Below, in pieces: positions 9,623 through 32,091 of a stretch of DNA of 64,000 bases. Both the position numbers and the translations under genes were made by a program. Each line of letters starts with the position of its first letter. The stretch's first letter is position 1. The stretch is from Sporobolomyces roseus (taxonomy: Eukaryota; Basidiomycota; Microbotryomycetes; Sporidiobolales; Sporidiobolaceae). The stretch covers positions 682,001-746,000 of the forward strand of contig JADILM010000012.1 in assembly GCA_016617785.1 (NCBI GenBank). Reading direction: 5' to 3'. The notes below the pieces were generated by a model. The model did not search any database and was not told the origin of the DNA. It worked only from the letters and a program-made list of their open reading frames with translations.

Positions 9623-9632
9623 AAGGACTCAC

Positions 9633-9683
9633 TTGCATAGCTCCGAGGGAGACCATGAGGTTGGTGATGGCAGGGTTAGGCAT
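9633..9683 (-). pseudogene. orphan first exon of PHO88 (truncated duplicate)
   Basis: Encodes MPNPAITNLMVSLGAMQ followed by the GTGAGTCC donor, identical to exon 1 of the intact PHO88 at 30772-30822. The upstream promoter sequence is also duplicated. Homology to PHO88 ends a few bases into intron 1 and nothing downstream resembles the remaining exons. This is a promoter plus first-exon remnant created when the palindrome arm captured the 5' end of PHO88, or was homogenised up to that point. Confidence 0.93.
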
Positions 9684-9953
9684 GGTGTATCTGTGGAGTA
9701 GAGTGGGAGGATATAGATAGGTTGAAAGTGTCAAGAGGCAGAATAATCGAATGGAAGTTGACGAAAGGAAAGTCAAAAATGGATTGAATTGTATTGACTA
9801 CCTCAATACGATTGAATGAGGGTTAGATCCGCTCCAGGAATAGTAACTTGCCATCATTGACTTGTTTGAGCAGGGTAGATGTTTAGATGCGTCTAGGATG
9901 ACGTTATTGATTGTGTACGTTTTCTTGAGCGGCGATTCTTTATCCGATTGTTT

Positions 9954-10051
9954 GTCCAGATGGCCGAGCGGTTAAGGCGACAGACTAGAATCTTCATTCG
10001 CTTCTCATCTGTTTCTGTTTCAGAGCGCAGGTTCAAATCCTGCTCTGGACG
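9954..10051 (+). tRNA. tRNA-Ser (anticodon AGA), intron-containing, copy A
   Basis: Acceptor GTCCAGA/TCTGGAC, D-arm region TGGCCGAGCGGTTAAGGCG, anticodon stem ACAGA/TCTGT with loop CT-AGA-A, an intron of about 16 nt, a long variable arm as expected for Ser, and T-arm GCAGG-TTCAAAT-CCTGC. Confidence 0.92.
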
Positions 10052-10303
10052 TCATCTTTTGCTTCGCTGCCCGAGGAGGAATGCAGGGGAAGGTACCTGA
10101 GGTACGGTACTTTGCTTGCTTTTTCTCAACGGTGTCCAGCAGCAGCTGTCCGTGGAGCTCTTCCGAAAGTGGTAATCTTGAACCAATTCCTTGATTGGAT
10201 CCAATCGTGACACGAGCAACGATGAATTCGAACAAAGTTGACAAATGCGACGAGAATGATCAAGAGTGGATACTGTTTGCTTGACAAGCCGCGGCTCCGA
10301 CCG

Positions 10304-10375
10304 GCCCCTATGGCTCAGTGGCAGAGCGTTCGCCTAGTAAGCGAAAGGTCCATAGTTCGATCCTGTGTGGGGGCA
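10304..10375 (+). tRNA. tRNA-Thr (anticodon AGU), copy A
   Basis: 72 nt without intron: acceptor GCCCCTA/TGGGGGC plus discriminator A, D-arm GGCTCAGTGGCAGAGCG, anticodon stem TTCGC/GCGAA with loop CTAGTAA (AGT), T-arm CATAG-TTCGATC-CTGTG. Confidence 0.93.
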
Positions 10376-10580
10376 ACCTCCCTTTTTGTTGCTCTGCAGG
10401 GAAAGCTTTCGGACAAGAGGCCCCTCTATCTGGGCTGAGCTAATTCCCTGTCAATCCTGCGCGCTCAGAGATTGTTTATGGGGGATATTTGGCTTGCAAA
10501 ATCAAGTTCAGTCACTTTTCGCGTGAGATTGACACCAATTTGATACTGTACGTTCAGTTGGGCCTCGCTCACTATACGAC

Positions 10581-10661
10581 GGTCGCATGGTGTAGTTGGT
10601 CATCACGTGTCCTTAACATCGAGTTCGGACAAGGTCTCCAGTTCAAACCTGGATGTGATCA
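10581..10661 (+). tRNA. tRNA-Val (anticodon AAC), short intron, copy A
   Basis: Acceptor GGTCGCA/TGTGATC with G-T pairs, D-arm TGGTGTAGTTGGTCATCA typical of tRNA-Val, anticodon stem TGTCC/GGACA, loop TT-AAC-A, an apparent intron of about 7 nt, T-arm CCAGG paired through TTCAAAC. Confidence 0.87.
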
Positions 10662-10739
10662 TCTTTTTGCTGCCGCTCTCCCCCTCCCCTCTCCTTTCCT
10701 CACCCCTCACTCACTCTTTCGATTGCCTCACCTTTGCAC

Positions 10740-11418
10740 CCCTTTGCACCCCTTTACACGCTCTGTTCCAAGCTGAGTTCATCTAGGTCAGCAACGCTGG
10801 AATGAACGCAATCAATCTCCGGGCTCGAGTCGCTACAACCGTTCAGTATCAACCTTTGATCAGCAGATGATACTTTGTGCGGTTTGTACCATTGTATCAC
10901 TCAAATGAAAGTAATCTGCGCAAGCTGGCGGATCGATCGTCCTTGCTCGATAGTTCTATTGCCGATGAGCGAATTTTGCAACTTGTTATTCTCTGCTACC
11001 CCCTCTAATGAATTTGGTCATCACGATCTAGTGACCAGGTGCTGCCATATTTGAGCCGAGATGATCCCACACTGCCTTTGAGAGCTTCATTTTGGTCTCC
11101 TGTCTCATCATTCGCATTCGCCATTTTCTCACGGAACTACGGGCTTCGTCGTATCGATGGTGTTGTGAGATGCACATGGTCAGCCAGTCAGGCACGTCTT
11201 GGTAGAAGTCGCAGAGAATGAATACTGCAACTTCTGTCTCCTCTCCATTCCGTGACGCTCGCTTTCCTTTACACAGAGTTCGTGAACGAGACGCGACACG
11301 CATGAAGGAGTCGTCATCGTCACACATATGTCAACATGTACTTGATCTCGTGCGGCGCGGCAGACAATAGAACCGGGAACAAAAGGAAAAGCTTCTTTGC
11401 GAGAAGAAAAAGGTAAAC
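10740..11418. other. left-arm spacer between tRNA cassette A and tRNA-Ile, no gene seen
   Basis: Contains short imperfect repeats of CACCCCTTT near 10738-10760. No frame is recognisable. The mirror copy is 29037-29715. Confidence 0.5.
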
Positions 11419-11505
11419 TGCTCAATGGCGGGATCGAACCGCCGACATCAGACTGAACTTGTGAAAGTATTAGGTCTGCATCATAACCAACTAGATCAAT
11501 CGAGC
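11419..11505 (-). tRNA. tRNA-Ile (anticodon AAU), intron-containing, left copy
   Basis: On the minus strand: acceptor GCTCGAT/ATTGAGC plus A, anticodon stem CAGAC/GTCTG with loop CT-AAT-A followed by an intron of about 13 nt, T-arm GGCGG-TTCGATC-CCGCC. The D-arm (TGATCTAGTTGGTTATGAT) is less typical for Ile, but the anticodon reading is clear. Confidence 0.82.
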
Positions 11506-12357
11506 TGGTGTGATGACTGATTCTGTTGTAATACATATAGCTCAACGCAATGTTGCAAGCAGCGCGTAGTTTTCGCAGCTAGGTGAGCTCATAGACAGCT
11601 CCCAGTACTCACACACGCTCATCTCGGATTTCTTCAGAGCGCTACGCCTCATCGGACCCCTCAGAGCGGAGCGGATCAGGATCGGCTAAAGACAATCGCT
11701 GTCTTTTCGCAAGTCAACAGGTTAATATCAATCAGACTGTTGGGGGACTGCACCAATGGAGAGAAGGGGATCTGCATGCGAGCCTTCTACCCCTTCTCTC
11801 TGTTGACACCAGTTTCTACTGTTTGTCAGGCTAGATTGCGTAGGGACTCGCAAGCGAGCATTGTTTACCTCCCCTTCTCTATCCGTTTCATATTGACCTC
11901 TGCCCTGCTTGGCACCACAAGCGGTCTGCGTAGCGGTACAAAAGCTTGGTGAAGGAAGACAAATATCACAAAATTATTATGTTACTGACCGGTCTCAAAG
12001 ATGAGGTTGTGCTGCCTCCGCGAGAGCGTGGCCTCGCTCGCAGTGATCTTTCTCACCTCTACTGCATTCAATGCGGTATCTGTACTAATGGCCAACTTTA
12101 GTCGGTGTCGTCTGTTCTGCGCTCTCCATTCGAAGGATGCAATAGAATCTGTTCATTCTGTCGTTCTGTCAAGATACGATTGAATTACTTTTCAGGCGTG
12201 CCGAAATATCGAAGCTTAGGAGTAGAAGTAGAACGGCGAGAACACGAAACTGCGAGCAACAACGAACGAAACCAATAACAAACTCAATAAATCCACTCAT
12301 GTTCGCTACTCCGTCTTCGTCTCTTCGATACCACGACGCTCAAACCCATCTCTTCCA
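11506..12357. other. left-arm segment lacking the 652 bp present in the right arm; no gene seen
   Basis: The join that corresponds to the right-arm insertion lies at about 11690, at the sequence GGCTAAAGACAATCG. The remaining DNA is present in both arms and shows no recognisable coding frame. Confidence 0.5.
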
Positions 12358-13160
12358 TTACTTGGAGTGAGTCGCACCCCAACGATCGAACCCACAGATC
12401 CTCGCTGTTCGATGTCCGATACTATAAGCATTCCCATTCCTTTGCGCCGCTCTCTCCTGATACCACTTTGTCAAAGTGCCCACATAAGGGACCGTCCTAA
12501 CCTCTCCGGTTTCAGGATCAAAGATCTCCTGCCTCCCATCCTCATGATCTGTAGGGTCGCGGTATCGCATGTACTGATCGTGAATGAGGTAAAACCTTCC
12601 AACGGCGTGCTTGTGATTCACCGGATCCGAGAAGCTGACCCATTTCGACTGTACAAGCATGAATCGTCAGTAAACAACGTCAAGCAGACCCGAAAGCGAC
12701 TCACCTCGACAATGCGATCAGGATTTCTTGTATCGTACCATCGATTGAAGTATCCGTTCTCGTCTGTCAACACCCGACCTTGAGTATCCTCCTTAGCCTT
12801 CAAGAGGCCGATCAGGGTTCGGTTCTGACGGTGTTGTTCGAGATCGGAAGGAAGAGGTGGCTCGAATTGGTGACCGACGACAGAGTTCCTCCGATGGACC
12901 GGTACTTCACGAGCAGGATCCTGGATCGCTCGTTCAAGTTCCGCTGCTCGTTTCTCGTACTCGAGAGCCTGGTGATAGTGACTAGTTTGTTCCGTCCGAT
13001 AGGCTGTGACTCGTTCGTTGGCGGCAAGAGGTTTGAGTGAATCATTCGCGAGGCGTGTTTTGAGGTCGACAGATGGATAGCTGATGTCCACCATGACGGG
13101 ATTGGCGAGAAGGAGGAAGGGTATCGGATGGGAGAAACAAGAGGATAGCGAAGAAGACAT
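12358..13160 (-). CDS. uncharacterised two-exon protein, left-arm copy
   Basis: Not recognised. The first exon starts at ATG 13160 (an in-frame alternative at 13094 gives MVDISYPSVDLKTRL). It encodes a charged helical region (HYHQALEYEKRAAELERAIQ) and LEQHRQNRTLIGLLKAKED, then ENGYFNRWYDTRNPDRIVE before a GTGAGT donor. The second exon reads SKWVSFSDPVNHKHAVGRFY, then YMRYRDPTDHEDGRQEIFDP and a Trp/Tyr-rich tail GTLTKWYQERAAQ, ending ICGFDRWGATHSK at 12358. Residue composition, consistent splicing and a frame free of damage argue for a real gene. A nearly identical copy lies at 26643-27445. The upstream start may carry a short hydrophobic leader (PIPFLLLANPV). Confidence 0.72.
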
Positions 13161-13199
13161 GCGACCGAAAGCCGAGATCCGCAAGCTCCGCGGCGAGGA

Positions 13200-13870
13200 T
13201 TAGGGGTGTTTGGGAACAGGCACTGGACTGACCATTCGTGTTTTCTCAGGAAGGTGAAGCGCAGGGAAGGAAGCTGATTGTTGCTGGGAACGAGTCGGAG
13301 TTTGAGTCTGGAGTCGATGAGACGAAAATGCGAGAGTGGAACGAATCTGGTTCGAAGGGGAGCACAGTCGATACTTTCGTCTATACGAGCCAGAGAGTGC
13401 GCACTGAAGCTCCTTGACGGTCTCGAAATCAAAAGCTGCACCCCAACTTTTCGACGGTGTCCTGTCGAGGTGATGGGGAGCCGATGAAGCGCAGAAGCAG
13501 GTCGCAGGCGCAGCAGAGTTCGACTCCTCCAAGTAGCGTGGATCGAGTGAGCGACTTTGGATGTCGCAGAAGACGGAAAACGTGAAATTGGCGAAATCGA
13601 GGGAAATAGGAAAATGAAGCCTCTTGCAGGTTCACGTTCGCCTGTCGAGCCGTAAACCCAGCCGAGATAGATGTAACGAGATGGGAGGAGCAGTACGATC
13701 GAGCAACGACATCGGCATGGCGCGCTGGAGGAGAGAAAGGAGGGTGAATGGCGAGAACTCGAGATGTATAGAGCGAATTTGATCGAACGTACCTCGCGAC
13801 CGCTCAGCCAGCCGTCCCGAGGGATTTGACGACACCGCACTAGCTCCCTCGTGACTTTGATCACCATTCG
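13200..13870 (-). other. coding-like segment upstream of the arm gene, left copy
   Basis: Long frames read PSKSWGAAFDFETVKELQCA and RELVRCRQIPRDGWLSGRE with plausible splice signals. No single spliced reading without stops could be assembled, and no family is recognised. It may be further exons of an upstream gene (a possible start MAQYLKVSRNGHWCTP lies at about 14130 on this strand) or a decaying gene. Mirror copy 25933-26603. Confidence 0.35.
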
Positions 13871-14490
13871 ACGCTGATTAACCGTTCAGCAGAATAGAAA
13901 CGAAGAAAGTGTCGGCGGCTGAATAAGGAAACCTCGGAGCTCGCCAAGAAGGTACGTAAATGTAGTAGAAGTGTGTCATCAACCATAACGAAAGGTCATT
14001 GCAAGTTCTGCGTTGAAGAATGAGCGGCGAGATCAGCTGGAGCGGTTTGAGGCGATGGAAGACGAGAGAGAACGAGACTCACGGGAGTACACCAGTGACC
14101 GTTCCTCGATACTTTTAGATATTGCGCCATTGTTTCCAGAGCTGGAAAGAGTGAGCTGAGTGAAGATCTAGAGGGAGAAACTCCCGTTCGTTCAACTAGA
14201 ACTCTTCCCACTCACCACGACTTTCTGAACCGCTGATTCATTCGCTTAGTCTACTCGGAGGATCCTGCAAAGGCTACGATTGCCGGCTCGACGTCATCTA
14301 GGAAGTATTCGCCGTTCAATCGCTCTTCCCCTCACGCAGAATTCGATCTCGCCAAACCTCCTGGCCTCGCTCGCTTCGGGCTCGTCAAAGCTATCACAGA
14401 GAATCAAAAGATTGCTCACTGATCGCACGAAGCGTTGCTGTCTCTATAGACGAGGAAATGGCCTCGAAACGGATCAATCGCAAAGTTGTC

Positions 14491-14530
14491 GGGAAGTGAA
14501 GGGAAGTGAAGGGAAGTGAAGGGAAGTGAC
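14491..14530. repeat. 10-bp tandem repeat x4, left copy
   Basis: GGGAAGTGAA is repeated three times followed by GGGAAGTGAC. The mirror copy at 25273-25312 has the same unit number. Confidence 0.95.
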
Positions 14531-15289
14531 TGTGAGTTTTGAAGATCTCGGCCCCCTTTTCGAAAGACTGAACATGCTAAATGAGTGACCATAGTTCTCG
14601 GGAATGGGAAGAAGATGCTGCCTTCGTCCAGAATTTCATTCTTCGAGCGATGACTTTCACGGCCTGCTTGGTGAGCACTCGTCGCGCTTTCGATCTTCGA
14701 TACCTTCACTACTGAGTACTATGCTTTGGGAATGGTAGACGAGAGATGCGACCCAGCGAAAGCATTTTCGATGTCTTTTCGCAACTGATTAGGGCGTCGA
14801 GTGCCAGCATCGCGATGACGTGAATGCGGAGTCAGATGACAGCTCTGTAAGCGTACATCACACCGCTAGGCCTCAACACGATGAATACGTGAGAATCCGC
14901 TTTCCTCGAAACTGAAACTCACTTGAACCTCGAATGCATCTTCAAAAACCTTTCTCACCGTCGAGTGCTCCTACTTTCAAACTTAACCAATCTTCCTTCA
15001 CTCTGCCGCAGCTCGGCTAAACTTCGAGTGCTTGCGTTTGAGTCGGGAGTAGCCAAGAGCAACCGCTTCTTCGGATCTCGAACGGATTCCTCCGTCTTCT
15101 CTCAGGTCGGCGTTTGCCTCCGAGACGACCGAGATGTGTCCTTTCTCTACTGCCTCGCTCTGACACCTCCGGGTAATCCCATTTGCAGCCCCACAGAGTC
15201 ATGTTTGAGAATCGATTGAGGAGGAGAACAACGTCGAGGGAAACACTGGTTGGCCCTCAAAGCGTAGCGGAAATCGACTGAAGAAGCGG

Positions 15290-15890
15290 AGGGCCAGGAT
15301 ACAGAAAAGAATGAGAAGTGCATGCTTGTCATCGATATCATCGAATCTGAGTGAGTACGAGCTCGTAGTCGTTGTCCTGCTCTTCGCTGACGACCGAATG
15401 TTTAGCTTCACGACTGATCGAGCAGTGCTCGCCTATCTCTATACTTCCCTCGCCCAGCTCGATACCCTGCCTTCCAATCTTCCCGTCGGACGCCAAGAAG
15501 CGCTCGATAGACCTGAGGTCAACAAGTCTCTCGAGTTCGTCTCGCCCGAAGAGTTGGATTTGGACGCGATACAATAATCTTGTTGGACAGCGAGACTAAC
15601 ATGGAGTTGCGCCGTACTCTCCTCGTACAATCTATCGTCTCGCAAATCTTTACGGTGTGGAGAAGTCGAGGGGATTTGCGAAAAGGTTGAATTCGCGACG
15701 AGCTTCAGGATTACGAATGTACGCATTCTTCCTCGCTTTTTGTTGCTCACAGAGTGAACTGATAAAATCTGGGGATCTTACAGGTTGTCCACGAACTGTT
15801 CAGTCTTTTGTCGTTTGATTCGAACGAGATTCAAGAAGCGATTCTCGAGTTCTTGCATGATTGCTGAGTGAGTTCTACCGTCTTTCGATG
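15290..15890 (+). pseudogene. coding-like spliced fragment of unknown identity, left copy
   Basis: An exon reading EKNEKCMLVIDIIES joins across a GTGAGT...TTTAG intron to DFTTDRAVLAYLYTSLAQLD, ending LEFVSPEELDLDAIQ with a stop at about 15577. Further on, VVHELFSLLSFDSNEIQEAI continues to a stop before another GTGAGT. The helical texture recalls HEAT/ARM-like proteins, but no family is identified and the pieces do not form one clean reading frame. Probably a broken gene or several small exons of one. Mirror copy 23913-24513 on the minus strand. Confidence 0.35.
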
Positions 15891-16491
15891 ATTTCCATCC
15901 GTAATCTAGGCTGACTCATCAGGTCCTGTGCACTCGGGCGGAAGTCAAACTAACGAGAGGTCTCGGAGCTGGTTCCTAGCAAATACACTGCTGGTGAAAA
16001 ATGCTGACGCTCGGAAGCTCAGCAAACAAGGTTCAGCAAGCAGCGGTCCCTGAGGCGACGTCAAGTGGCGATACTGCAGTCTCGGAACCACGTATTAGGT
16101 CTTCTTCTTTCAGAAGCAGTGGAATCAAGGAAATCAATCATCTTTCTGTATTCCGTTCACTCAATCACCCCGAGTCACAAGCGATCTCCTCCGTGACAAC
16201 CAGCGTAACGCTGCGGAGGTAGTTGTTCGCACTCTCCTGCTTGTGATAGATTGGAAGCGTGACGCAAAATCAAATTCTGCGGAGCTCGATTTGCTCGACC
16301 TCTTTGCACGAGGCTACTGAGAAGACACTGTTTGCTGTCAAGCGAGAGCAACACGCTCTCATACGGCTATTTGTTACTCTTGTCTGACACTCGTGTTCGA
16401 TGTGTTCCCGGTTTGTGCATGAAAACCAGCAATTTGCGAGCGGCTGGAGGAAGTCCGGACTACGCGGGAGCGCCGACGGGTAGCTCGCCGA
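15891..16491. other. left-arm DNA between coding-like fragment and tRNA cassette B, no gene seen
   Basis: Only short unrecognised frames. Mirror copy 23312-23912. Confidence 0.5.
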
Positions 16492-16569
16492 GTGCAAAGG
16501 TGAGGCAATCGAAAGAGTGAGTGAGGGGTGAGGAAAGGAGAGGGGAGGGGGAGAGCGGCAGCAAAAAGA

Positions 16570-16650
16570 TGATCACATCCAGGTTTGAACTGGAGACCTT
16601 GTCCGAACTCGATGTTAAGGACACGTGATGACCAACTACACCATGCGACC
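16570..16650 (-). tRNA. tRNA-Val (anticodon AAC), copy B
   Basis: Identical to copy A tRNA-Val in acceptor, anticodon and T-arm, on the minus strand. Confidence 0.87.
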
Positions 16651-16855
16651 GTCGTATAGTGAGCGAGGCCCAACTGAACGTACAGTATCAAATTGGTGTC
16701 AATCTCACGCGAAAAGTGACTGAACTTGATTTTGCAAGCCAAATATCCCCCATAAACAATCTCTGAGCGCGCAGGATTGACAGGGAATTAGCTCAGCCCA
16801 GATAGAGGGGCCTCTTGTCCGAAAGCTTTCCCTGCAGAGCAACAAAAAGGGAGGT

Positions 16856-16927
16856 TGCCCCCACACAGGATCGAACTATGGACCTTTCGCTTACTAGGCG
16901 AACGCTCTGCCACTGAGCCATAGGGGC
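16856..16927 (-). tRNA. tRNA-Thr (anticodon AGU), copy B
   Basis: Identical to copy A tRNA-Thr, intronless, minus strand. Confidence 0.93.
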
Positions 16928-17179
16928 CGGTCGGAGCCGCGGCTTGTCAAGCAAACAGTATCCACTCTTGATCATTCTCGTCGCATTTGTCAACTTTGTT
17001 CGAATTCATCGTTGCTCGTGTCACGATTGGATCCAATCAAGGAATTGGTTCAAGATTACCACTTTCGGAAGAGCTCCACGGACAGCTGCTGCTGGACACC
17101 GTTGAGAAAAAGCAAGCAAAGTACCGTACCTCAGGTACCTTCCCCTGCATTCCTCCTCGGGCAGCGAAGCAAAAGATGA

Positions 17180-17277
17180 CGTCCAGAGCAGGATTTGAAC
17201 CTGCGCTCTGAAACAGAAACAGATGAGAAGCGAATGAAGATTCTAGTCTGTCGCCTTAACCGCTCGGCCATCTGGAC
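17180..17277 (-). tRNA. tRNA-Ser (anticodon AGA), copy B
   Basis: Identical to copy A tRNA-Ser including its intron, minus strand. Its 5' end is about 107 bp from the CpG-poor core. Confidence 0.92.
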
Positions 17278-17384
17278 AAACAATCGGATAAAGAATCGCC
17301 GCTCAAGAAAACGTACACAATCAATAACGTCATCTTAGACGCATCTAAACATCTACCCTGCTCAAACAAGTCAATGATGGCAAG

Positions 17385-20300
17385 AAACCTCTCATTCAGT
17401 TCACACAATAGGGGCCCCGTTCCCAGGGCTAACCAAGTTGGCCAATTTGACCAATTTTGTCCACACTGCCCCAACAAAGTAAGCATGTCAAAACCTTCTG
17501 ACTTCCGTTCTGTTCACACAAGTTTGGCCAATGACACCTGACGGCCATTGCACTTCTTTGCTTTATCAAGACTTTCTTTTGATGGCTAGGGCACTGTGGG
17601 CACAGATGTGGGCACAGAGACAGACGGCAGGAGTCAGATACAGTGTCTACTCAGCCACCTGATCTCTGCCGGCTTCAGTGTTTATCAGATGGATTGGCCT
17701 GGAACGGAACTGCAAGTCCATCAGGACCCATGAACAGGACTCCGCGTTGATACACTGCCAGCTCACTTGCTGTTTTGTCCTCGCACACAGAGGTAGAAGA
17801 CCGACCAGCTCATATGTTGTAACATACTCTGGGCGAAGCACCGCAAGCTCATCAGTGAGAGAAAAAGTGGAAGGTTGATGTCTTGACCAACATTCGCTCA
17901 ATCGATAGAAGAGGTACAAAGCGTGTTGCAAACTGAGTTGTCTTGTAAAAGCGTGTGTAGCTCTACACAATGCAATAAAAGGGTGCTCACCTAATTGTCT
18001 CATACAAGTGCAGAGAGACAATCCAAGCCGAGTGAAACGCGAAAGTGATTCAATCAGCTTTCGCTACGCGCGCTTTGCTGCAGCTTCAGCTTCGTCCGTC
18101 TCAATTCATCAATGCGTAACTGAGCAAGACTATTATGGCTTCACACAGAGGATGACGCAAAAGCCTCATATTCTGTAGTCTGCAGGGGCAGGGTTGCTTT
18201 GTTGTTCCAGTCTCCATTTTTGTGTATTATCCGCCATTGACTAGATTCCTCAAGCTGTGATATTCTTTCTCCGCCGCATCTGAGGCTCCCACAGAATATA
18301 CGCTCTGCGCAAGGCTCAATCAAGATTATCCTACTGTATGAGATCAAGGTAGCCTACGCCAAACAGCAGCCTACCAGGCTCGCTTCCGCTGAATGCCTGG
18401 GCGTGTGCGCATTGTCAAACAAGGGGCGCAGAACTAGGGGCAAAGTCAGGGGTGGGTGTTATCCGCTGCTGTGTGTCAGTTGTAAACCATATTTGATCAT
18501 TCTCGTTGCAGTTGGCGGAAAGGCCTTCTGTTTCTACTGATGGAACACATTTGAAAGATTTGCGGCGGTTAATCCTTTGCGGACAATTTGGAAAGAACGA
18601 AGTGCTGTGAGCAGTAGAGTAGCCTTGTTGTTACGTGCCTGTCCAAGGGTCGCTGAGTGTCTGCACTGGCACCCCAATGTATCAAGAGGTAGCTCTGCTG
18701 CGTGAGAAGGGAAAAATAAGAATGAGAAGCTGAAAGAAAGGGCGAAGAAAAAACTCACAAAGTCGCAAAGCGCGTTGATTGCGAGGCTGAAATTTAGGGA
18801 AATCGACAGAAAGGCACCACCTGTGTAGAGCCTGCGGATGAATTCGATCCAACACGGTAAACTCACCAGGTCCAGACACAATAAGGATTGACAAATGTTT
18901 GACTCATCTTACTTGGTGCAGTTATTTGTCTGCTTGATCCCGATAACAACAACTCTTTGAAAGTGGATCACGAAGTAATAGGCATCCGCATTGTGTATTG
19001 GTGCCAGAGTGACCATGCTTTTCATCATCATGTTCTCCTCTTGACCTGCACCACTTTTGGATCCCTTTCTGGTTTGATCTCACTCACCCTGTCAATCTGT
19101 GGTCTTGATAGCTACCTCATCTTGCATATCGATGTGGTTTACCCCCAAAGTATACAGCCATGACCCTCAAGCGTGCAGTATCCAATCTGCTTGGACATGG
19201 CTGTGCTCTACTGTGTCCCCTGTTGTTGCATACTTCAGCTTGTAGCAGCAGCTGTCTATGCTCCTTGTATTTTTGCAAAGCAGCTTAGAGTGTAAACTCA
19301 ATCTACTTGAAACAAGGTTGGGAGCTTGTGAAGTGCCGTGCAGCAATTCAGAACCTCGTTCTGCCAAGCCTACCTGTGAAAGACACACTTATGACTGACC
19401 ATCATGTTGCAGCAGACACTCTCAAGGATTAGTTACTTATTGTTATACATCACTTTTGCTCTTTTGTACTGATTCATTAGCTCTCTTCACTTCCGCTCTT
19501 TCTACTTTCTTTCCCTTCTCTCTAGCGCTTTACACCAAAGAACAGGTCCGTTTTTACTTTGTACTTTCATCTCGTAAACTCTGTAATTTTGCCAGCACTT
19601 CACACTGGATTCAATACACCAAGTGAGGCTGTGTGGGTACGGTCACCCTAACCCCAACCTCAAGTTCTTTGCAAACTATCTGCCCACAGTTTTTGTTTGT
19701 CTGAAGCTTGTCTGGCCTCCGCACACGTAATGACATACAGAAAGAAACAAATGTAAACCAGCAAATCATGAGTCTGTCGAGGGTTATTTTGCAAGTCTGT
19801 AGTATGTCAGGATTATGTGGCCACCTCTGGCATGAGTCCATCATTGTCACCAGAGATCGTGCAAGTCCTGCAGCTTTATGCTGGGGCAAAAAAGTCAGAC
19901 AGAGGAGAATTCCCAATGCAGTGCAGAAAGCCTAGATTTCAGGGTTAGGATTACGAGAAAATCCAGATAGCGGAATCCTGGCATGCAGAAGGAGAACTTC
20001 TGTGTGAGCACAGAACTTAAGTCAGAAACGTAGAGACACAGTTGAAATATTTTCGAGACTGGCTGTAATCTCATCTCAGCCATACTCGACGATGTTGATC
20101 ACGCAGTACAATCACATGCCAAGTAGTAAGATTCCAGGTCTTTGCGTGTCGATCTGTCGCTGCCACTTTTGTCTGATGCCGGACATCGGGACACTGTCGA
20201 TGCGACGTTCGCCTTTGTCTGCCAGCTCAGCATATATATCACACGGCGAATCAAAAATAGTACCCTTCTGTAGAAAGACACCAACATGTTCAATTTTTTG

Positions 20301-22947: not shown

Positions 22948-23152
22948 ACCTCCCTTTTTGTTGCTCTGCAGGGAAAGCTTTCGGACAAGAGGCCCCTCTA
23001 TCTGGGCTGAGCTAATTCCCTGTCAATCCTGCGCGCTCAGAGATTGTTTATGGGGGATATTTGGCTTGCAAAATCAAGTTCAGTCACTTTTCGCGTGAGA
23101 TTGACACCAATTTGATACTGTACGTTCAGTTGGGCCTCGCTCACTATACGAC

Positions 23153-23233
23153 GGTCGCATGGTGTAGTTGGTCATCACGTGTCCTTAACATCGAGTTCGG
23201 ACAAGGTCTCCAGTTCAAACCTGGATGTGATCA
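23153..23233 (+). tRNA. tRNA-Val (anticodon AAC), copy C
   Basis: Same sequence as copy A tRNA-Val. Confidence 0.87.
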
Positions 23234-23311
23234 TCTTTTTGCTGCCGCTCTCCCCCTCCCCTCTCCTTTCCTCACCCCTCACTCACTCTTTCGATTGCCT
23301 CACCTTTGCAC

Positions 23312-23912: not shown

Positions 23913-24513
23913 CATCGAAAGACGGTAGAACTCACTCAGCAATCATGCAAGAACTCGAGAATCGCTTCTTGAATCTCGTTCGAATCAAACGACAAAAGAC
24001 TGAACAGTTCGTGGACAACCTGTAAGATCCCCAGATTTTATCAGTTCACTCTGTGAGCAACAAAAAGCGAGGAAGAATGCGTACATTCGTAATCCTGAAG
24101 CTCGTCGCGAATTCAACCTTTTCGCAAATCCCCTCGACTTCTCCACACCGTAAAGATTTGCGAGACGATAGATTGTACGAGGAGAGTACGGCGCAACTCC
24201 ATGTTAGTCTCGCTGTCCAACAAGATTATTGTATCGCGTCCAAATCCAACTCTTCGGGCGAGACGAACTCGAGAGACTTGTTGACCTCAGGTCTATCGAG
24301 CGCTTCTTGGCGTCCGACGGGAAGATTGGAAGGCAGGGTATCGAGCTGGGCGAGGGAAGTATAGAGATAGGCGAGCACTGCTCGATCAGTCGTGAAGCTA
24401 AACATTCGGTCGTCAGCGAAGAGCAGGACAACGACTACGAGCTCGTACTCACTCAGATTCGATGATATCGATGACAAGCATGCACTTCTCATTCTTTTCT
24501 GTATCCTGGCCCT
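23913..24513 (-). pseudogene. coding-like spliced fragment of unknown identity, right copy
   Basis: Mirror of 15290-15890 with the same exon-like pieces (TTDRAVLAYLYTSLAQLD and VVHELFSLLSFDSNEIQEAI) and the same stops. The identity of damage in both arms shows it predates the last homogenisation of the arms. Confidence 0.35.
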
Positions 24514-25272
24514 CCGCTTCTTCAGTCGATTTCCGCTACGCTTTGAGGGCCAACCAGTGTTTCCCTCGACGTTGTTCTCCTCCTCAATCGATTCTCAAAC
24601 ATGACTCTGTGGGGCTGCAAATGGGATTACCCGGAGGTGTCAGAGCGAGGCAGTAGAGAAAGGACACATCTCGGTCGTCTCGGAGGCAAACGCCGACCTG
24701 AGAGAAGACGGAGGAATCCGTTCGAGATCCGAAGAAGCGGTTGCTCTTGGCTACTCCCGACTCAAACGCAAGCACTCGAAGTTTAGCCGAGCTGCGGCAG
24801 AGTGAAGGAAGATTGGTTAAGTTTGAAAGTAGGAGCACTCGACGGTGAGAAAGGTTTTTGAAGATGCATTCGAGGTTCAAGTGAGTTTCAGTTTCGAGGA
24901 AAGCGGATTCTCACGTATTCATCGTGTTGAGGCCTAGCGGTGTGATGTACGCTTACAGAGTTGTCATCTGACTCCGCATTCACGTCATCGCGATGCTGGC
25001 ACTCGACGCCCTAATCAGTTGCGAAAAGACATCGAAAATGCTTTCGCTGGGTCGCATCTCTCGTCTACCATTCCCAAAGCATAGTACTCAGTAGTGAAGG
25101 TATCGAAGATCGAAAGCGCGACGAGTGCTCACCAAGCAGGCCGTGAAAGTCATCGCTCGAAGAATGAAATTCTGGACGAAGGCAGCATCTTCTTCCCATT
25201 CCCGAGAACTATGGTCACTCAGTTAGCATGTTCAGTCTTTCGAAAAGGGGGCCGAGATCTTCAAAACTCACA

Positions 25273-25312
25273 GTCACTTCCCTTCACTTCCCTTCACTTC
25301 CCTTCACTTCCC
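25273..25312. repeat. 10-bp tandem repeat x4, right copy
   Basis: Mirror of 14491-14530, read here as four TTCACTTCCC-type units. Confidence 0.95.
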
Positions 25313-25932
25313 GACAACTTTGCGATTGATCCGTTTCGAGGCCATTTCCTCGTCTATAGAGACAGCAACGCTTCGTGCGATCAGTGAGCAATCTTTTGAT
25401 TCTCTGTGATAGCTTTGACGAGCCCGAAGCGAGCGAGGCCAGGAGGTTTGGCGAGATCGAATTCTGCGTGAGGGGAAGAGCGATTGAACGGCGAATACTT
25501 CCTAGATGACGTCGAGCCGGCAATCGTAGCCTTTGCAGGATCCTCCGAGTAGACTAAGCGAGTGAATCAGCGGTTCAGAAAGTCGTGGTGAGTGGGAAGA
25601 GTTCTAGTTGAACGAACGGGAGTTTCTCCCTCTAGATCTTCACTCAGCTCACTCTTTCCAGCTCTGGAAACAATGGCGCAATATCTAAAAGTATCGAGGA
25701 ACGGTCACTGGTGTACTCCCGTGAGTCTCGTTCTCTCTCGTCTTCCATCGCCTCAAACCGCTCCAGCTGATCTCGCCGCTCATTCTTCAACGCAGAACTT
25801 GCAATGACCTTTCGTTATGGTTGATGACACACTTCTACTACATTTACGTACCTTCTTGGCGAGCTCCGAGGTTTCCTTATTCAGCCGCCGACACTTTCTT
25901 CGTTTCTATTCTGCTGAACGGTTAATCAGCGT

Positions 25933-26603
25933 CGAATGGTGATCAAAGTCACGAGGGAGCTAGTGCGGTGTCGTCAAATCCCTCGGGACGGCTGGCTGAG
26001 CGGTCGCGAGGTACGTTCGATCAAATTCGCTCTATACATCTCGAGTTCTCGCCATTCACCCTCCTTTCTCTCCTCCAGCGCGCCATGCCGATGTCGTTGC
26101 TCGATCGTACTGCTCCTCCCATCTCGTTACATCTATCTCGGCTGGGTTTACGGCTCGACAGGCGAACGTGAACCTGCAAGAGGCTTCATTTTCCTATTTC
26201 CCTCGATTTCGCCAATTTCACGTTTTCCGTCTTCTGCGACATCCAAAGTCGCTCACTCGATCCACGCTACTTGGAGGAGTCGAACTCTGCTGCGCCTGCG
26301 ACCTGCTTCTGCGCTTCATCGGCTCCCCATCACCTCGACAGGACACCGTCGAAAAGTTGGGGTGCAGCTTTTGATTTCGAGACCGTCAAGGAGCTTCAGT
26401 GCGCACTCTCTGGCTCGTATAGACGAAAGTATCGACTGTGCTCCCCTTCGAACCAGATTCGTTCCACTCTCGCATTTTCGTCTCATCGACTCCAGACTCA
26501 AACTCCGACTCGTTCCCAGCAACAATCAGCTTCCTTCCCTGCGCTTCACCTTCCTGAGAAAACACGAATGGTCAGTCCAGTGCCTGTTCCCAAACACCCC
26601 TAA
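25933..26603 (+). other. coding-like segment upstream of the arm gene, right copy
   Basis: Mirror of 13200-13870. A possible upstream first exon, ATG at 25673 (MAQYLKVSRNGHWCTP then GTGAGT), meets a stop in the next apparent exon. The gene is therefore either broken or spliced in a way not evident here. Confidence 0.35.
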
Positions 26604-26642
26604 TCCTCGCCGCGGAGCTTGCGGATCTCGGCTTTCGGTCGC

Positions 26643-27445
26643 ATGTCTTCTTCGCTATCCTCTTGTTTCTCCCATCCGATACCCTTCCTCCTTCTCGCCA
26701 ATCCCGTCATGGTGGACATCAGCTATCCATCTGTCGACCTCAAAACACGCCTCGCGAATGATTCACTCAAACCTCTTGCCGCCAACGAACGAGTCACAGC
26801 CTATCGGACGGAACAAACTAGTCACTATCACCAGGCTCTCGAGTACGAGAAACGAGCAGCGGAACTTGAACGAGCGATCCAGGATCCTGCTCGTGAAGTA
26901 CCGGTCCATCGGAGGAACTCTGTCGTCGGTCACCAATTCGAGCCACCTCTTCCTTCCGATCTCGAACAACACCGTCAGAACCGAACCCTGATCGGCCTCT
27001 TGAAGGCTAAGGAGGATACTCAAGGTCGGGTGTTGACAGACGAGAACGGATACTTCAATCGATGGTACGATACAAGAAATCCTGATCGCATTGTCGAGGT
27101 GAGTCGCTTTCGGGTCTGCTTGACGTTGTTTACTGACGATTCATGCTTGTACAGTCGAAATGGGTCAGCTTCTCGGATCCGGTGAATCACAAGCACGCCG
27201 TTGGAAGGTTTTACCTCATTCACGATCAGTACATGCGATACCGCGACCCTACAGATCATGAGGATGGGAGGCAGGAGATCTTTGATCCTGAAACCGGAGA
27301 GGTTAGGACGGTCCCTTATGTGGGCACTTTGACAAAGTGGTATCAGGAGAGAGCGGCGCAAAGGAATGGGAATGCTTATAGTATCGGACATCGAACAGCG
27401 AGGATCTGTGGGTTCGATCGTTGGGGTGCGACTCACTCCAAGTAA
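26643..27445 (+). CDS. uncharacterised two-exon protein, right-arm copy
   Basis: Same protein as at 12358-13160, with an identical translation across both exons as far as can be read. Exon 1 runs to IVE before a GTGAGTCGC donor, and exon 2 starts SKWVSFSDPVNHKHAVGRFY and ends at a stop at 27445. Function unknown. The two copies point towards the core of the palindrome from neither side: each is transcribed outward, away from the spacer. Confidence 0.72.
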
Positions 27446-28113
27446 TGGAAGAGATGGGTTTGAGCGTCGTGGTATTGAAGAGACGAAGACGGAGTAGCGA
27501 ACATGAGTGGATTTATTGAGTTTGTTATTGGTTTCGTTCGTTGTTGCTCGCAGTTTCGTGTTCTCGCCGTTCTACTTCTACTCCTAAGCTTCGATATTTC
27601 GGCACGCCTGAAAAGTAATTCAATCGTATCTTGACAGAACGACAGAATGAACAGATTCTATTGCATCCTTCGAATGGAGAGCGCAGAACAGACGACACCG
27701 ACTAAAGTTGGCCATTAGTACAGATACCGCATTGAATGCAGTAGAGGTGAGAAAGATCACTGCGAGCGAGGCCACGCTCTCGCGGAGGCAGCACAACCTC
27801 ATCTTTGAGACCGGTCAGTAACATAATAATTTTGTGATATTTGTCTTCCTTCACCAAGCTTTTGTACCGCTACGCAGACCGCTTGTGGTGCCAAGCAGGG
27901 CAGAGGTAAATATGAAACGGATAGAGAAGGGGAGGTAAACAATGCTCGCTTGCGAGTCCCTACGCAATCTAGCCTGACAAACAGTAGAAACTGGTGTCAA
28001 CAGAGAGAAGGGGTAGAAGGCTCGCATGCAGATCCCCTTCTCTCCATTGGTGCAGTCCCCCAACAGTCTGATTGATATTAACCTGTTGACTTGCGAAAAG
28101 ACAGCGATTGTCT
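27446..28113. other. right-arm DNA downstream of the arm gene, no gene seen
   Basis: Mirror of about 11690-12357; short unrecognised frames only. Confidence 0.5.
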
Positions 28114-28765
28114 CGCACTCCTCTTCTCGTCTCAACCTTGAGCGTTATAGGGACTGCCCGAAGGCGTTGATTTCGGCTCGAAAAGGGGGAATAAAGAAAG
28201 ATAAAAGTGAAACGAGAAGAGCGACAAAAGAGAGAAGCGAGTGAAGAGAGAGAGAGGTGTAAGAATGGGGAAGGAGGGTGGGTAGGTCAAAGAACTTGAA
28301 GAAGGCAATAGAGTATAAGTACTACGATCGAGACGAAATCAAAGAGGGGGGATCTCCTGCCTCACCTTGAAGAAGGCGTTTAACGAGGTGGCTAGCGATA
28401 ACTGCTGTGTGCCGTTTACCAGGAGCGGGAATGCGATTAGTGCGATTATCCCGATGGAAGAGAAGACTAAGGCGAACCTCGATTGCTTCCGATGAGTGTG
28501 AGTGTCTACGACCGATGAGAGCGAGCGAAAGCAAGCGATGAAGGTGTAAAGTAGACGAGAGGAGGAAGCGATGAGGAGGAGATGAAACCGCTCTAGAGAC
28601 AATCGAAGGCTCCGCCGCATTCAGCAAACTGCCTAGCGAACGTGCTCCGACTGAAACGAGAGGGCGATAGACAGAGGTAGAACTGACCGCAAGAGGGAAT
28701 GTTGAGACTATGATTCGCGCGACTATTGTGCCAACTCCTCGCAAGCTCGTCAAAGGCAAAATCGA
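28114..28765 (-). other. 652 bp segment present only in the right arm, with coding-like exons
   Basis: Absent from the left arm. On the minus strand three exon-like pieces can be chained through GT...AG introns: TSLRGVGTIVARIIVSTFPL, then GARSLGSLLNAAEPSIVSR, then QSRFALVFSSIGIIALIAFP continuing LLVNGTQQLSLATSLNAFFK before GTGAGG. The last piece contains one likely transmembrane helix. The identity is not recognised. It may be the remnant of a gene deleted from the left arm or an insertion in the right one. Confidence 0.45.
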
Positions 28766-28949
28766 TTAGCCGATCCTGATCCGCTCCGCTCTGAGGGGTC
28801 CGATGAGGCGTAGCGCACTGAAGAAATCCGAGATGAGCGTGTGTGAGTACTGGGAGCTGTCTATGAGCTCACCTAGCTGCGAAAACTACGCGCTGCTTGC
28901 AACATTGCGTTGAGCTATATGGATTACAACAGAATCAGTCATCACACCA

Positions 28950-29036
28950 GCTCGATTGATCTAGTTGGTTATGATGCAGACCTAATACTTTCACAAGTTC
29001 AGTCTGATGTCGGCGGTTCGATCCCGCCATTGAGCA
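28950..29036 (+). tRNA. tRNA-Ile (anticodon AAU), intron-containing, right copy
   Basis: Mirror of 11419-11505, same sequence including the intron of about 13 nt. Confidence 0.82.
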
Positions 29037-29715
29037 GTTTACCTTTTTCTTCTCGCAAAGAAGCTTTTCCTTTTGTTCCCGGTTCTATTGTCTGCCGCGC
29101 CGCACGAGATCAAGTACATGTTGACATATGTGTGACGATGACGACTCCTTCATGCGTGTCGCGTCTCGTTCACGAACTCTGTGTAAAGGAAAGCGAGCGT
29201 CACGGAATGGAGAGGAGACAGAAGTTGCAGTATTCATTCTCTGCGACTTCTACCAAGACGTGCCTGACTGGCTGACCATGTGCATCTCACAACACCATCG
29301 ATACGACGAAGCCCGTAGTTCCGTGAGAAAATGGCGAATGCGAATGATGAGACAGGAGACCAAAATGAAGCTCTCAAAGGCAGTGTGGGATCATCTCGGC
29401 TCAAATATGGCAGCACCTGGTCACTAGATCGTGATGACCAAATTCATTAGAGGGGGTAGCAGAGAATAACAAGTTGCAAAATTCGCTCATCGGCAATAGA
29501 ACTATCGAGCAAGGACGATCGATCCGCCAGCTTGCGCAGATTACTTTCATTTGAGTGATACAATGGTACAAACCGCACAAAGTATCATCTGCTGATCAAA
29601 GGTTGATACTGAACGGTTGTAGCGACTCGAGCCCGGAGATTGATTGCGTTCATTCCAGCGTTGCTGACCTAGATGAACTCAGCTTGGAACAGAGCGTGTA
29701 AAGGGGTGCAAAGGG
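29037..29715. other. right-arm spacer between tRNA-Ile and tRNA cassette D, no gene seen
   Basis: Mirror of 10740-11418. Confidence 0.5.
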
Positions 29716-29793
29716 GTGCAAAGGTGAGGCAATCGAAAGAGTGAGTGAGGGGTGAGGAAAGGAGAGGGGAGGGGGAGAGCGGCAGCAAAAAGA

Positions 29794-29874
29794 TGATCAC
29801 ATCCAGGTTTGAACTGGAGACCTTGTCCGAACTCGATGTTAAGGACACGTGATGACCAACTACACCATGCGACC
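29794..29874 (-). tRNA. tRNA-Val (anticodon AAC), copy D
   Basis: Same sequence as copy A tRNA-Val, minus strand. Confidence 0.87.
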
Positions 29875-30079
29875 GTCGTATAGTGAGCGAGGCCCAACTG
29901 AACGTACAGTATCAAATTGGTGTCAATCTCACGCGAAAAGTGACTGAACTTGATTTTGCAAGCCAAATATCCCCCATAAACAATCTCTGAGCGCGCAGGA
30001 TTGACAGGGAATTAGCTCAGCCCAGATAGAGGGGCCTCTTGTCCGAAAGCTTTCCCTGCAGAGCAACAAAAAGGGAGGT

Positions 30080-30151
30080 TGCCCCCACACAGGATCGAAC
30101 TATGGACCTTTCGCTTACTAGGCGAACGCTCTGCCACTGAGCCATAGGGGC
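30080..30151 (-). tRNA. tRNA-Thr (anticodon AGU), copy D
   Basis: Same sequence as copy A tRNA-Thr, minus strand. Confidence 0.93.
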
Positions 30152-30403
30152 CGGTCGGAGCCGCGGCTTGTCAAGCAAACAGTATCCACTCTTGATCATT
30201 CTCGTCGCATTTGTCAACTTTGTTCGAATTCATCGTTGCTCGTGTCACGATTGGATCCAATCAAGGAATTGGTTCAAGATTACCACTTTCGGAAGAGCTC
30301 CACGGACAGCTGCTGCTGGACACCGTTGAGAAAAAGCAAGCAAAGTACCGTACCTCAGGTACCTTCCCCTGCATTCCTCCTCGGGCAGCGAAGCAAAAGA
30401 TGA

Positions 30404-30501
30404 CGTCCAGAGCAGGATTTGAACCTGCGCTCTGAAACAGAAACAGATGAGAAGCGAATGAAGATTCTAGTCTGTCGCCTTAACCGCTCGGCCATCTGGA
30501 C
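30404..30501 (-). tRNA. tRNA-Ser (anticodon AGA), copy D
   Basis: Same sequence and intron as copy A tRNA-Ser, minus strand. It lies about 270 bp upstream of the PHO88 start, divergently transcribed. Confidence 0.92.
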
Positions 30502-30771
30502 AAACAATCGGATAAAGAATCGCCGCTCAAGAAAACGTACACAATCAATAACGTCATCCTAGACGCATCTAAACATCTACCCTGCTCAAACAAGTCAATG
30601 ATGGCAAGTTACTATTCCTGGAGCGGATCTAACCCTCATTCAATCGTATTGAGGTAGTCAATACAATTCAATCCATTTTTGACTTTCCTTTCGTCAACTT
30701 CCATTCGATTATTCTGCCTCTTGACACTTTCAACCTATCTATATCCTCCCACTCTACTCCACAGATACACC

Positions 30772-32091
30772 ATGCCTAACCCTGCCATCACCAACCTCAT
30801 GGTCTCCCTCGGAGCTATGCAAGTGAGTCCTTGTCCAGAAGCCACTCGCCTCGGGAAAGAGGCAAATCGGCCTCCATCAGTCGACCAAGAGCGAGGAATA
30901 GGGCAGGTGAATCTGGGAACCGGCTAAGGATACCGGTAGAGGTGAAAGCGAAACGCTGGAGGCTTAGAAGAGCGCTGCATGGCTTGATCAAATCTAAAGG
31001 GACACGAGGCAGTTCAGATCTCGTCGCACCAAAGGGAGGGATGCCATGTAGGATGCCGTTCGCTATTCAGACGAGTAACAATCCGTCTCAAGCCAAACCA
31101 AAGCGCTTTATACTGACTACACCCTCGTTTTCAACTTTCCTTCCTTCGCCTTCTTTCTCGAACTTGTCCCCATTCTCTGCTCGCCTTGACCCGTAACCGT
31201 TCTTTCGCCTCTCCACCGCCTGACCGCTACCACGACCACTTCTCAATAAATCCGATTCGCTCACATCCATCAGATCGCTCGCAAAATCGACTTTGAGGAT
31301 CCTTCGGTACTCCTCTACGTTCGATGCCTCTACGTTGGAGCGCAATTGCTTTCTCTTGGTATCTACTACTACACAACCCTCAAAGTGAGTGCATCTTTCT
31401 TTCGCTTGACATCTTGTCCTGCTCTTTTCGCAATCCGTTTCACAAGCTAATTCTGCCTACTCTTTTCCCGCAGATCAAGCAAAAGAATGATCTCAAGGTG
31501 CTCAAGTACACTGAACCTGCCAAGCCTATGGTAAGTCTCGTGTCTCTGTTATCCCCTTTCGATGGGGCAAAACTAACGAAATCATGCGATTCTCCAGTCT
31601 GGTGACGGCCCCACCACAGTCACGACTACTGTACGAGATTATGATCTTTCGCAAGCTTCAGCTGCTGTTCGATCGGTCCTCATGGGTTGCGCTTTCGTAA
31701 GTCGGCAGCACCTAATTCCCTTCCAAATCAAATCTCGCTCATTCCCTGTACCTGTTTCTGCCTCACAGATGGCATTCATGCATCTCTACATGAAGTACAC
31801 TCAACCTCTCTTCATTCAAGGTATCATGCCCCTCAAATCGCTCTTCGATGCCAAAGTTAGTTTCTCCCTTTTTGTCCTCTCTTTTCGCGCTCGAGTGCTC
31901 AACGCTTCCCTTTCGCTTGTACCTTCCAGATCCTCAAGATCCACTTGTTCGGTCAACCCGCTACTGGCGATCTCAAGCGACCCTTTGAAGCTCCCGCTGG
32001 CATGTTCGGAGGTGGAGCTCCCGCTGCGAATGAGACTGAGACTGAGGCGCCCGCTGTCGAGGCAAAGAAGGAGGCTAAGAAGGACAAGTAG
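30772..32091 (+). CDS. PHO88: Pho88/Snd3 ER membrane-targeting protein
   Basis: Small ER membrane protein of the SND targeting route, also known for phosphate-transporter maturation. Exon 1 (30772-30822) encodes MPNPAITNLMVSLGAMQ. After an unusually long first intron (to about 31273) come IARKIDFEDPSVLLYVRCLY, LSLGIYYYTTLK, IKQKNDLKVLKYTEPAKPM, the TTVTTTVRDYDLSQASAAVR segment, MAFMHLYMKYTQPLFIQGIM, and an exon with LKIHLFGQPATGDLKRPFEA and a charged tail ending KKEAKKDK. This is the full Pho88 family layout with two to three membrane segments. At least five introns. The inverted-repeat edge lies at 30832 inside intron 1, so promoter and first exon are part of the palindrome while the rest is single copy. 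Confidence 0.95.

Follow-up and report, generated by a model that had tools for sequence, protein, structure and literature searches.

The 64,000-nucleotide stretch analysed here (the window) lies on contig C12 of a Sporidiobolales yeast and contains a palindrome in which a left arm of 8,769 bp (9623..18391, plus strand) and a right arm of 9,448 bp (21385..30832, minus strand) flank a unique spacer of 2,993 bp (18392..21384). The order was indicated by one desaturase exon (89% to Sporobolomyces roseus, the nearest named species); exons of ATG9 and of a nucleotide-sugar transporter were not decisive on this point. The inner piece of the arms aligns at 99.5% identity over 6,729 columns (7 mismatches, 27 gap bases), and the outer piece at 99.9% over 2,067 bp (2 mismatches). 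A 27-bp gap accounts for the greater length of the right arm together with a 652-bp insert found in this arm only (28114..28765), which is 94% identical to C4:140564-141201, a segment adjoining the corresponding core on contig C4. The 4-kb flanks outside the left and right arms show no mutual match at E 1e-3, and one flank simply folded back would therefore not account for the palindrome.

ARAGORN, with introns allowed, detects 15 tRNA genes in the window, 14 of them inside the palindrome, namely four Ser-AGA/Thr-AGT/Val-AAC cassettes and two tRNA-Ile (AAT) genes; its bacterial mode detects only the four intronless Thr genes. The outer left cassette (9847..10739, plus strand) carries Ser at 9953-10053, Thr at 10304-10375 and Val at 10581-10661, and the inner left cassette (16492..17384, minus strand) carries Val at 16570-16650, Thr at 16856-16927 and Ser at 17178-17278. 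Across the spacer, the inner right cassette (22419..23311, plus strand) holds Ser at 22525-22625, Thr at 22876-22947 and Val at 23153-23233, while the outer right cassette (29716..30608, minus strand) holds Val at 29794-29874, Thr at 30080-30151 and Ser at 30402-30502. The two outer cassettes are identical to each other, as are the two inner ones, and the two kinds differ by a single base. The Ile genes lie at 11419..11505 (left arm, minus strand; ARAGORN) and 28950..29036 (right arm, plus strand; ARAGORN and Rfam). Cassette Thr and Ser genes were called by both programs and the Val genes by ARAGORN; in the Rfam search, only tRNAs reached the gathering score.

A two-state HMM delimits a CpG-poor core domain of 5.2 kb (17308..22504), TG/CA-rich in composition profiles and gene-free in a coding scan, which is the putative kinetochore or CENP-A domain; the HMM also marks smaller CpG-poor stretches at the outer cassettes (9407-12099 and 29247-30162). 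Coding-like windows number 0/33 in the core, 1/48 and 1/53 in the arms, and 19/58 and 61/215 in the flanks, whose rates are flattered by a codon table trained on flank ORFs. An earlier note on this DNA had claimed mirror-image arms of about 8.77 and 9.45 kb around a 2.99 kb spacer, four symmetric tRNA cassettes with two tRNA-Ile genes, and a gene-less, largely CpG-poor domain enclosed by the innermost cassettes; these descriptions are borne out, the arm and spacer lengths exactly.

None of the 13 ORFs scanned, out of 45 of at least 100 aa at 9-32 kb, reached the Pfam cut-off, mobile-element domains included, and matches below it to LKAAEAR (0.0073) and Zona_pellucida (0.012) were judged to be chance. 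A genome-wide search with positions 18100-21000 returned only copies of the element E1, described below, and the locus's own arm; the C12 core is not built of retrotransposons in the manner of Cryptococcus. Satellite arrays were absent from the four loci scanned for them (C12, C4, C3 and C7), which hold only short arrays of 2-7 copies.

E1 is an element of about 200 bp in the C12 spacer that recurs on six other contigs, at one locus per contig. Its modelled part spans 19409..19581 on the plus strand, with similarity to the C4 copy extending to about 19624, and a second, diverged E1-like copy lies at 21158..21279 on the minus strand (model R1, E 5.9e-11). A DNA search of the genome found copies on C3, C4, C5 (two, mirror-placed), C10, C11 and C12, and the C11 copy used as query recovered all of these loci except C3. 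Two further sites were examined for their back-to-back tRNA pairs: E1 was found at that on C7 (4.7e-20) and not at that on C1. A degenerate pattern built from the found copies gave 10 matches, 8 in cores and 2 elsewhere, against 4 for a reversed control pattern, so that matches outside the cores do not exceed the control level; a shorter pattern matched C2:1956434 with 3 mismatches, likewise not above its control (2 hits). In sensitive BLAST comparisons, 18/21 pairs of cores share a piece, compared with 0/15 flank pairs at the same cut-off. The E1 pieces are only 64-83% identical, and their position varies, from the edge of the core on C4 to near its middle on C12, with two copies on C5 and C10. 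Pooled CpG observed/expected is 0.51 in E1 versus 0.57 in the remaining core, so E1 enjoys no special protection. If the cores share a sequence signal, E1 is the strongest candidate for it; the element may serve protein binding or the start of transcription or replication, or may be only a relic.

The second element, E2, is present in a left copy (17868..18133, plus strand) and a right copy (21670..21935, minus strand), and is common to C7, C8 and two subtelomeres, adjoining the telomeres at the right end of C5 and the left end of C6. The latter placement hinted at a second centromere broken between these two ends; this was rejected, since the right end of C5 bears TTAGGG repeats and C6 starts with their complement, making E2 subtelomeric there. 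As a side observation, a few 8-mers outside E1 occur in at least 5/7 cores and are rare in flanks (for example, 7 versus 0, uncorrected for multiple testing).

The C12 locus is not alone. E1-bearing, CpG-poor, gene-free cores of 5-12 kb occur on C3, C4, C5, C7, C10, C11 and C12, one per contig, and an eighth candidate on C8 is placed by E2 coordinates only, giving one locus on 8/12 large contigs and no contig with two E1 loci; E1 and tRNA-pair searches gave no candidate on C1, C2, C6 or C9. The CpG-poor domain measures 5.2-7.1 kb at six loci and 12.4 kb at C11. Coding-like windows in the seven domains total 0/272 (for C11, the central 6.3 kb only) versus 353/1217 in the flanks of six loci, and all seven, C11 in its central part, thus contain a gene-free domain, as expected of a regional centromere. 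The eight loci are spread over eight different contigs (p 0.024). Each sits 60-268 kb from an end, within the outermost 24.3% of its contig (p 0.003); both tests were chosen after the data were seen.

Inverted arms are present at 4/7 examined loci (C12, C5, C7 and C11, not C3, C4 or C10) and tRNA genes border the core or lie close to its edges at 5/7, C3 and C4 having none and C10 having tRNAs without arms; neither feature is therefore required. Conversely, an inverted repeat (91%) with tRNA-Pro at C1:780-788 kb has normal CpG, no CpG-poor domain longer than 300 bp and no core signature. With E1 cores lacking arms and tRNAs on the one hand and an inverted repeat lacking the core on the other, we rejected the palindrome as the definition of a centromere; the common denominator of the loci is the CpG-poor E1 core. 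The earlier note had proposed a genome-wide search for one similar core with inverted repeats per chromosome. That search, run in part, spoke for the centromere reading and yielded the related cores, once per contig, but the arms at just over half of them and nothing on four contigs.

At several loci, the CpG-poor domain ends near tRNA genes. The distance from domain edge to nearest tRNA is 30 and 21 bp at C12, 0 and 0 bp at C5, 382 and 0 bp at C10, 308 and 319 bp at C7, and 216 and 136 bp at C11, where only outer tRNAs qualify and the domain extends beyond the innermost ones. Thus, tRNA genes lie within 30 bp of the edge at C12 and C5 and within about 400 bp at C10 and C7, and not at C3 or C4. 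When each palindrome enters the test a single time, the combined p is 1.3e-4; taken alone, C7 and C11 are not significant. The segmentation is blind to tRNAs and was trained on the same regions that the test uses, and the base composition of the tRNA genes themselves may help the result.

Taken together, these features suggest that the locus is very probably the regional centromere of contig C12. The centromere role put forward in the earlier note gains support from the related E1 cores on six further contigs, although the palindrome and tRNAs on which it leaned prove frequent rather than universal. CENP-A chromatin and the kinetochore would form on the CpG-poor core at 17.3-22.5 kb. RNA polymerase III and TFIIIC on the inner tRNA cassettes would halt the outward spread of core chromatin, and on the outer cassettes would part the arms, themselves free of genes, from the neighbouring genes, while arm-to-arm gene conversion would maintain the likeness of the arms. 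The palindrome may help or decorate the centromere but does not define it, because the loci on C3 and C4 do without both arms and tRNAs. E1 could also help to specify the kinetochore site, making the locus a hybrid of point-like sequence specification and a tRNA-fenced, fission-yeast-like domain, independent of Schizosaccharomyces; this we hold to be possible yet rather doubtful.

Several other explanations bear on this reading. Near-identical arms are a product that assemblers can make by fold-back joining, but an assembly artefact, or a recent functionless duplication driven by tRNAs, is extremely improbable given that the outer flanks are unrelated, the right arm carries its own insert, and C5, C7 and C11 have separate palindromes, those arms on C7 being 95.9% identical, which indicates that palindromes persist. 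The loss of CpG might instead reflect repeat-induced point mutation (RIP) and not a special, for example methylated, chromatin domain. A RIP-like process at TCG is reported in Microbotryum, of the same class (in the passages of PMC10502011 considered), TCG and ACG are the most depleted contexts, and the RIP-like index is higher in the pooled cores (-0.13, with 0.15 at C12 and 0.04 at C3) than in the pooled flanks (-0.41). Yet every NCG context is depleted in the cores (observed/expected T 0.51, A 0.50, G 0.64, C 0.66, against 1.22, 1.05, 1.04 and 0.80 in flanks), the index stays below 0 in 5/7 cores, and at C12 the duplicated arm is spared while the single-copy spacer is depleted. TCG-type RIP is thus not favoured as the sole cause, for all that the index is higher in cores, and we regard this account as unlikely. 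Cytosine methylation is a plausible source of the loss because all NCG contexts are depleted; an intron-blind search of the genome, with prokaryotic controls, found no member of the DNA methylase family PF00145.

The position of all eight loci near contig ends, the sharing of E2 with two subtelomeres, and the presence on C5 of an E1 core near the left end and an E2 copy near the right telomere would also fit silent heterochromatin near chromosome ends instead of kinetochore sites. This we judge very unlikely, as each contig has a single E1 locus, never one at both ends, DNA and pattern searches do not find E1 at the subtelomeric E2 sites, and the gene-free cores are alike in length. A stronger contender, to which we give somewhat less than an even chance, accepts the cores as centromeres and differs on the function of their parts: E1 and E2 would be roleless relics of mobile elements that seek centromeres or heterochromatin, and the tRNAs and arms by-products of recombination. 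The low identity and varied placement of E1, its exposure to CpG loss, E2 beside telomeres, a copy of an LTR-like dispersed repeat at the C3 core edge, and the C1 inverted repeat without core signature all agree with it, whereas the failure to see E1 outside cores above control, the lack of Pfam matches among the scanned ORFs, and the ending of CpG-poor domains near tRNAs above chance speak against it.

The centromere reading finds its closest parallel in fission yeasts. In Schizosaccharomyces pombe, S. octosporus and S. cryophilus, according to the passages of PMC6538654 considered here, a core lies within centromere-specific inverted imr arms, tRNA clusters occur at transitions between CENP-A chromatin and heterochromatin and at centromere extremities, and tRNA borders are absent at some centromeres, as they are here; a fission-yeast tRNA barrier is treated in PMC2040200 (in part). 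By sequence, inverted arms specific to the chromosome surround the core at the four palindromic loci. The present locus differs in its basidiomycete host and smaller size, in the lack of arms at some loci, in an arm that is not CpG-poor between the cassettes, and in an E1 common to cores. Outer repeats common to centromeres, a further component in fission yeasts, are lacking, as comparison of C12 with 40 kb each of C3, C4, C5, C10 and C11 revealed nothing in common beyond parts of the tRNA cassettes, E1 and a 651-bp piece that C12 shares with C4.

Among budding yeasts, the Candida tropicalis type likewise has a core of a few kb between inverted repeats, in some species at only some centromeres (PMC12711049, in the part considered), but C. 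tropicalis homogenises its middle regions between chromosomes, whereas the cores here share short elements only and have tRNA cassettes at their edges. Several centromeres of the Kuraishia capsulata type have a motif of about 200 bp in common (same part of PMC12711049); E1, by contrast, sits in a gene-free domain of 5-12 kb and has a candidate role only. Within the basidiomycetes, the earlier note's statement that known centromeres are mostly transposon-rich does not apply to all, since those of Malassezia and Kwoniella (median 6.7 kb) are, in the passages considered, short, ORF-free and poor in transposons (PMC11185503, PMC7025860), as is the locus described here. The M. sympodialis core is AT-rich and reported without direct or inverted repeats, and nowhere does that paper (PMC7025860) mention tRNA; the C12 core is not AT-rich, GC being at least 0.449 in each of its 1-kb windows. 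Putative centromeres of Microbotryum, also in the Microbotryomycetes, are similarly gene-poor and form a single region per contig, but are defined by abundant tandem centromeric repeats (PMC5962589, in part), none of which were seen at the four loci scanned.

Among the matches listed in the open literature, a scope outside which most subscription journals fall, and in the parts of those sources considered, none described inverted arms together with tRNA borders at a basidiomycete centromere. If the reading is true, the fission-yeast plan of a core, inverted arms and tRNA fences evolved anew in Basidiomycota, and tRNA borders and inverted arms would seem to be recurrent solutions. Since some loci of this genome combine arms with tRNAs, one has tRNAs but no arms, and others lack both, natural variants within a single cell allow a test of what each part does. 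For Rhodosporidium toruloides, a review states in the part considered that there is no verified centromere or autonomously replicating sequence (PMC7334043). The loci described here, if true centromeres, would provide candidate centromere DNA for red yeasts, which may be of help for stable plasmids.

The palindrome on contig C12 (JADILM010000012.1), proposed in an earlier note as a tRNA-bordered regional centromere, is very probably a centromere; the window covers C12:682001-746000. Its layout was found as that note had described it, with a left arm at 9623-18391, a right arm at 21385-30832 and a spacer at 18392-21384. A Ser-Thr-Val tRNA cassette lies at or close to both ends of each arm, which also holds one tRNA-Ile; the two outer cassettes match exactly, as do the two inner ones, and a single base distinguishes the two kinds, a pattern that points to probable exchange between the arms. 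An additional tRNA-Thr (CGT) lies immediately beyond the left arm at 8767-8856 on the minus strand, without a mirror copy on the right.

E1, an element of about 200 bp in the spacer, was located with the spacer as query on C3, C4, C5 (two copies), C10 and C11, and 40 kb around each locus was examined for arms and tRNAs. The C5 and C11 loci have inverted arms of 6.4 kb (99.8% and 99.9% identity, respectively) with tRNAs, the C10 locus has outward tRNAs without arms, and neither arms nor tRNAs were found around E1 on C3 and C4. In a genome tRNA search, 63 of 1,095 candidates were scored and two back-to-back pairs among the matches listed were examined. The pair on C7 accompanies E1 (E 4.7e-20) and arms at 95.9% identity within the 10 kb examined; the other, at C1:779001-789000, lies in an inverted repeat of about 1.5 kb (91%) that bears tRNA-Pro genes and encloses a 4-kb middle with a dispersed repeat. 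Neither E1 nor CpG loss was found there, making it a naturally occurring tRNA palindrome that lacks the core signature. A degenerate E1 pattern made from the known copies matched 8 copies and 2 other sites (4 matches for the reversed control), and a shorter one matched 5 copies and C2:1956434 (control, 2). The search for similar cores with inverted repeats across the genome, proposed in the earlier note and run in part, gave a favourable result: E1 loci occur on C3, C4, C5, C7, C10 and C11, but arms, besides C12, only at C5, C7 and C11, and the E1 searches gave no candidate above control on C1, C2, C6 and C9.

A two-state dinucleotide model, trained on these same regions and blind to tRNAs, placed a CpG-poor, TG/CA-rich domain at every one of the seven E1 loci (C12, 5.2 kb; C5 and C4, 5.5 kb each; C10, 5.9 kb; C7, 7.0 kb; C3, 7.1 kb; C11, 12.4 kb), with smaller CpG-poor pieces of 0.3-2.7 kb beside the cores of C12, C5, C4, C3 and C11, and found no such domain over 300 bp at the C1 palindrome. 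The main domain edges lie close to the nearest tRNA (30 and 21 bp on C12, 0 and 0 bp on C5, 382 and 0 bp on C10, 308 and 319 bp on C7, 216 and 136 bp on C11; combined p 1.3e-4 when each palindrome enters a single time; C7 and C11 do not stand out individually). Coding-like windows were absent from the seven domains (0/272, taking the central 6.3 kb of C11) as against 353/1217 in the flanks of six loci. With sensitive BLAST, 18 of the 21 core pairs share a piece, all but C7 with C3, C10 and C11, versus 0/15 flank pairs at the same cut-off.

CpG is reduced in every NCG context, TCG and ACG the most, but not in the duplicated C12 arm; the loss is therefore not accounted for simply by TCG-type RIP as reported from Microbotryum (PMC10502011, in part), even though the RIP-like index is higher in cores than in flanks (-0.13 versus -0.41). 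Despite the strong loss, an intron-blind search of the whole genome for cytosine methylases of family PF00145 came back empty.

The assembly comprises 22.4 Mb in 15 contigs, twelve of 0.76-4.74 Mb and C13 of 23.7 kb; on C14 and C15 one tRNA set recurs about every 28 kb among the candidates scored, suggesting mitochondrial DNA concatenated in the assembly. A 24-base pattern located telomere repeats at the right ends of C2, C4, C5, C6 and C12, and one of the five contig starts examined (C6) has them too. If contigs are chromosomes, the eight loci would fall on as many separate contigs with p 0.024, and all in the outer 24.3% of their contigs with p 0.003, both tests having been picked after data inspection.

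DNA also appears to have moved between these loci. An insert at 28114-28765, present in the right arm only, is 94% identical to C4:140564-141201, abutting the C4 core, which suggests a copy from one candidate centromere into another; the tRNA-less C4 core has its left edge at 141206, and the copied piece ends at 141201. Inspection of the insert by eye showed neither a target-site duplication nor a terminal repeat. E2, a second element, lies within the arms of C12 (17868-18133 and 21670-21935) and C7, forms an inverted pair about 4.1 kb apart on C8, and adjoins the telomeres of C5 right (C5:1876531-1876794) and C6 left (C6:128-399), being shared by two subtelomeres and by the centromere candidates of C7, C8 and C12. 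This is reminiscent of fission yeasts, whose subtelomeres contain centromere-like repeats. A dispersed repeat of about 870 bp lies at the C3 core edge (C3:256314-257101); C8 has two copies of it 7.2 kb apart in the same orientation, an arrangement that suggests the LTRs of a retrotransposon, and by eye the opening 120 bases of C8 resemble the end of a retrotransposon integrase.

One gene upholds the reading of the organism as a basidiomycete yeast and gives a reasonable footing for the order Sporidiobolales. An exon of a fatty-acid desaturase (C5:177627-178586), which lies about 0.7 kb beyond the left arm of the palindrome on C5, matches a metagenome protein best overall (100% identity); its best named match is Sporobolomyces roseus (89%), ahead of other Sporobolomyces, Rhodotorula and Rhodosporidiobolus. 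For this order, in the portions available, PMC7334043 states that no centromere is verified in R. toruloides, and the term "centromer" is absent from PMC12093110, occurs solely in a reference in PMC9027234 and solely in a kinesin table in PMC12584667; none of the four yielded a centromere description.

By analogy, the locus would work like a fission-yeast centromere. It is not classed with that family, since outer repeats common to several centromeres were not seen in the compared regions, outer heterochromatin is putative and arms are missing at some other loci of this genome. Nor are the cores homogenised as in C. tropicalis, made of transposons or AT-rich as in Malassezia, and the loci scanned are not satellite-based, unlike those of Microbotryum; M. 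sympodialis centromeres are reported without direct or inverted repeats (PMC7025860, in part).

In fission yeasts, tRNA clusters occupy CENP-A/heterochromatin transitions and centromere extremities (PMC6538654, in part), and the tRNA barrier requires TFIIIC and Pol III and functions in either orientation (PMC2040200, in part). Orientation varies likewise here: on C5 the inner tRNAs point inward, on C12, C7, C10 and C11 outward. On this model, CENP-A would sit on the CpG-poor core, the inner tRNAs would fence it, and the outer tRNAs would separate the gene-free arms from genes. Such a border role for the tRNAs is somewhat more likely than not, a function of E1 as a signal is rather doubtful, and E1 may be either what specifies these centromeres or a relic.
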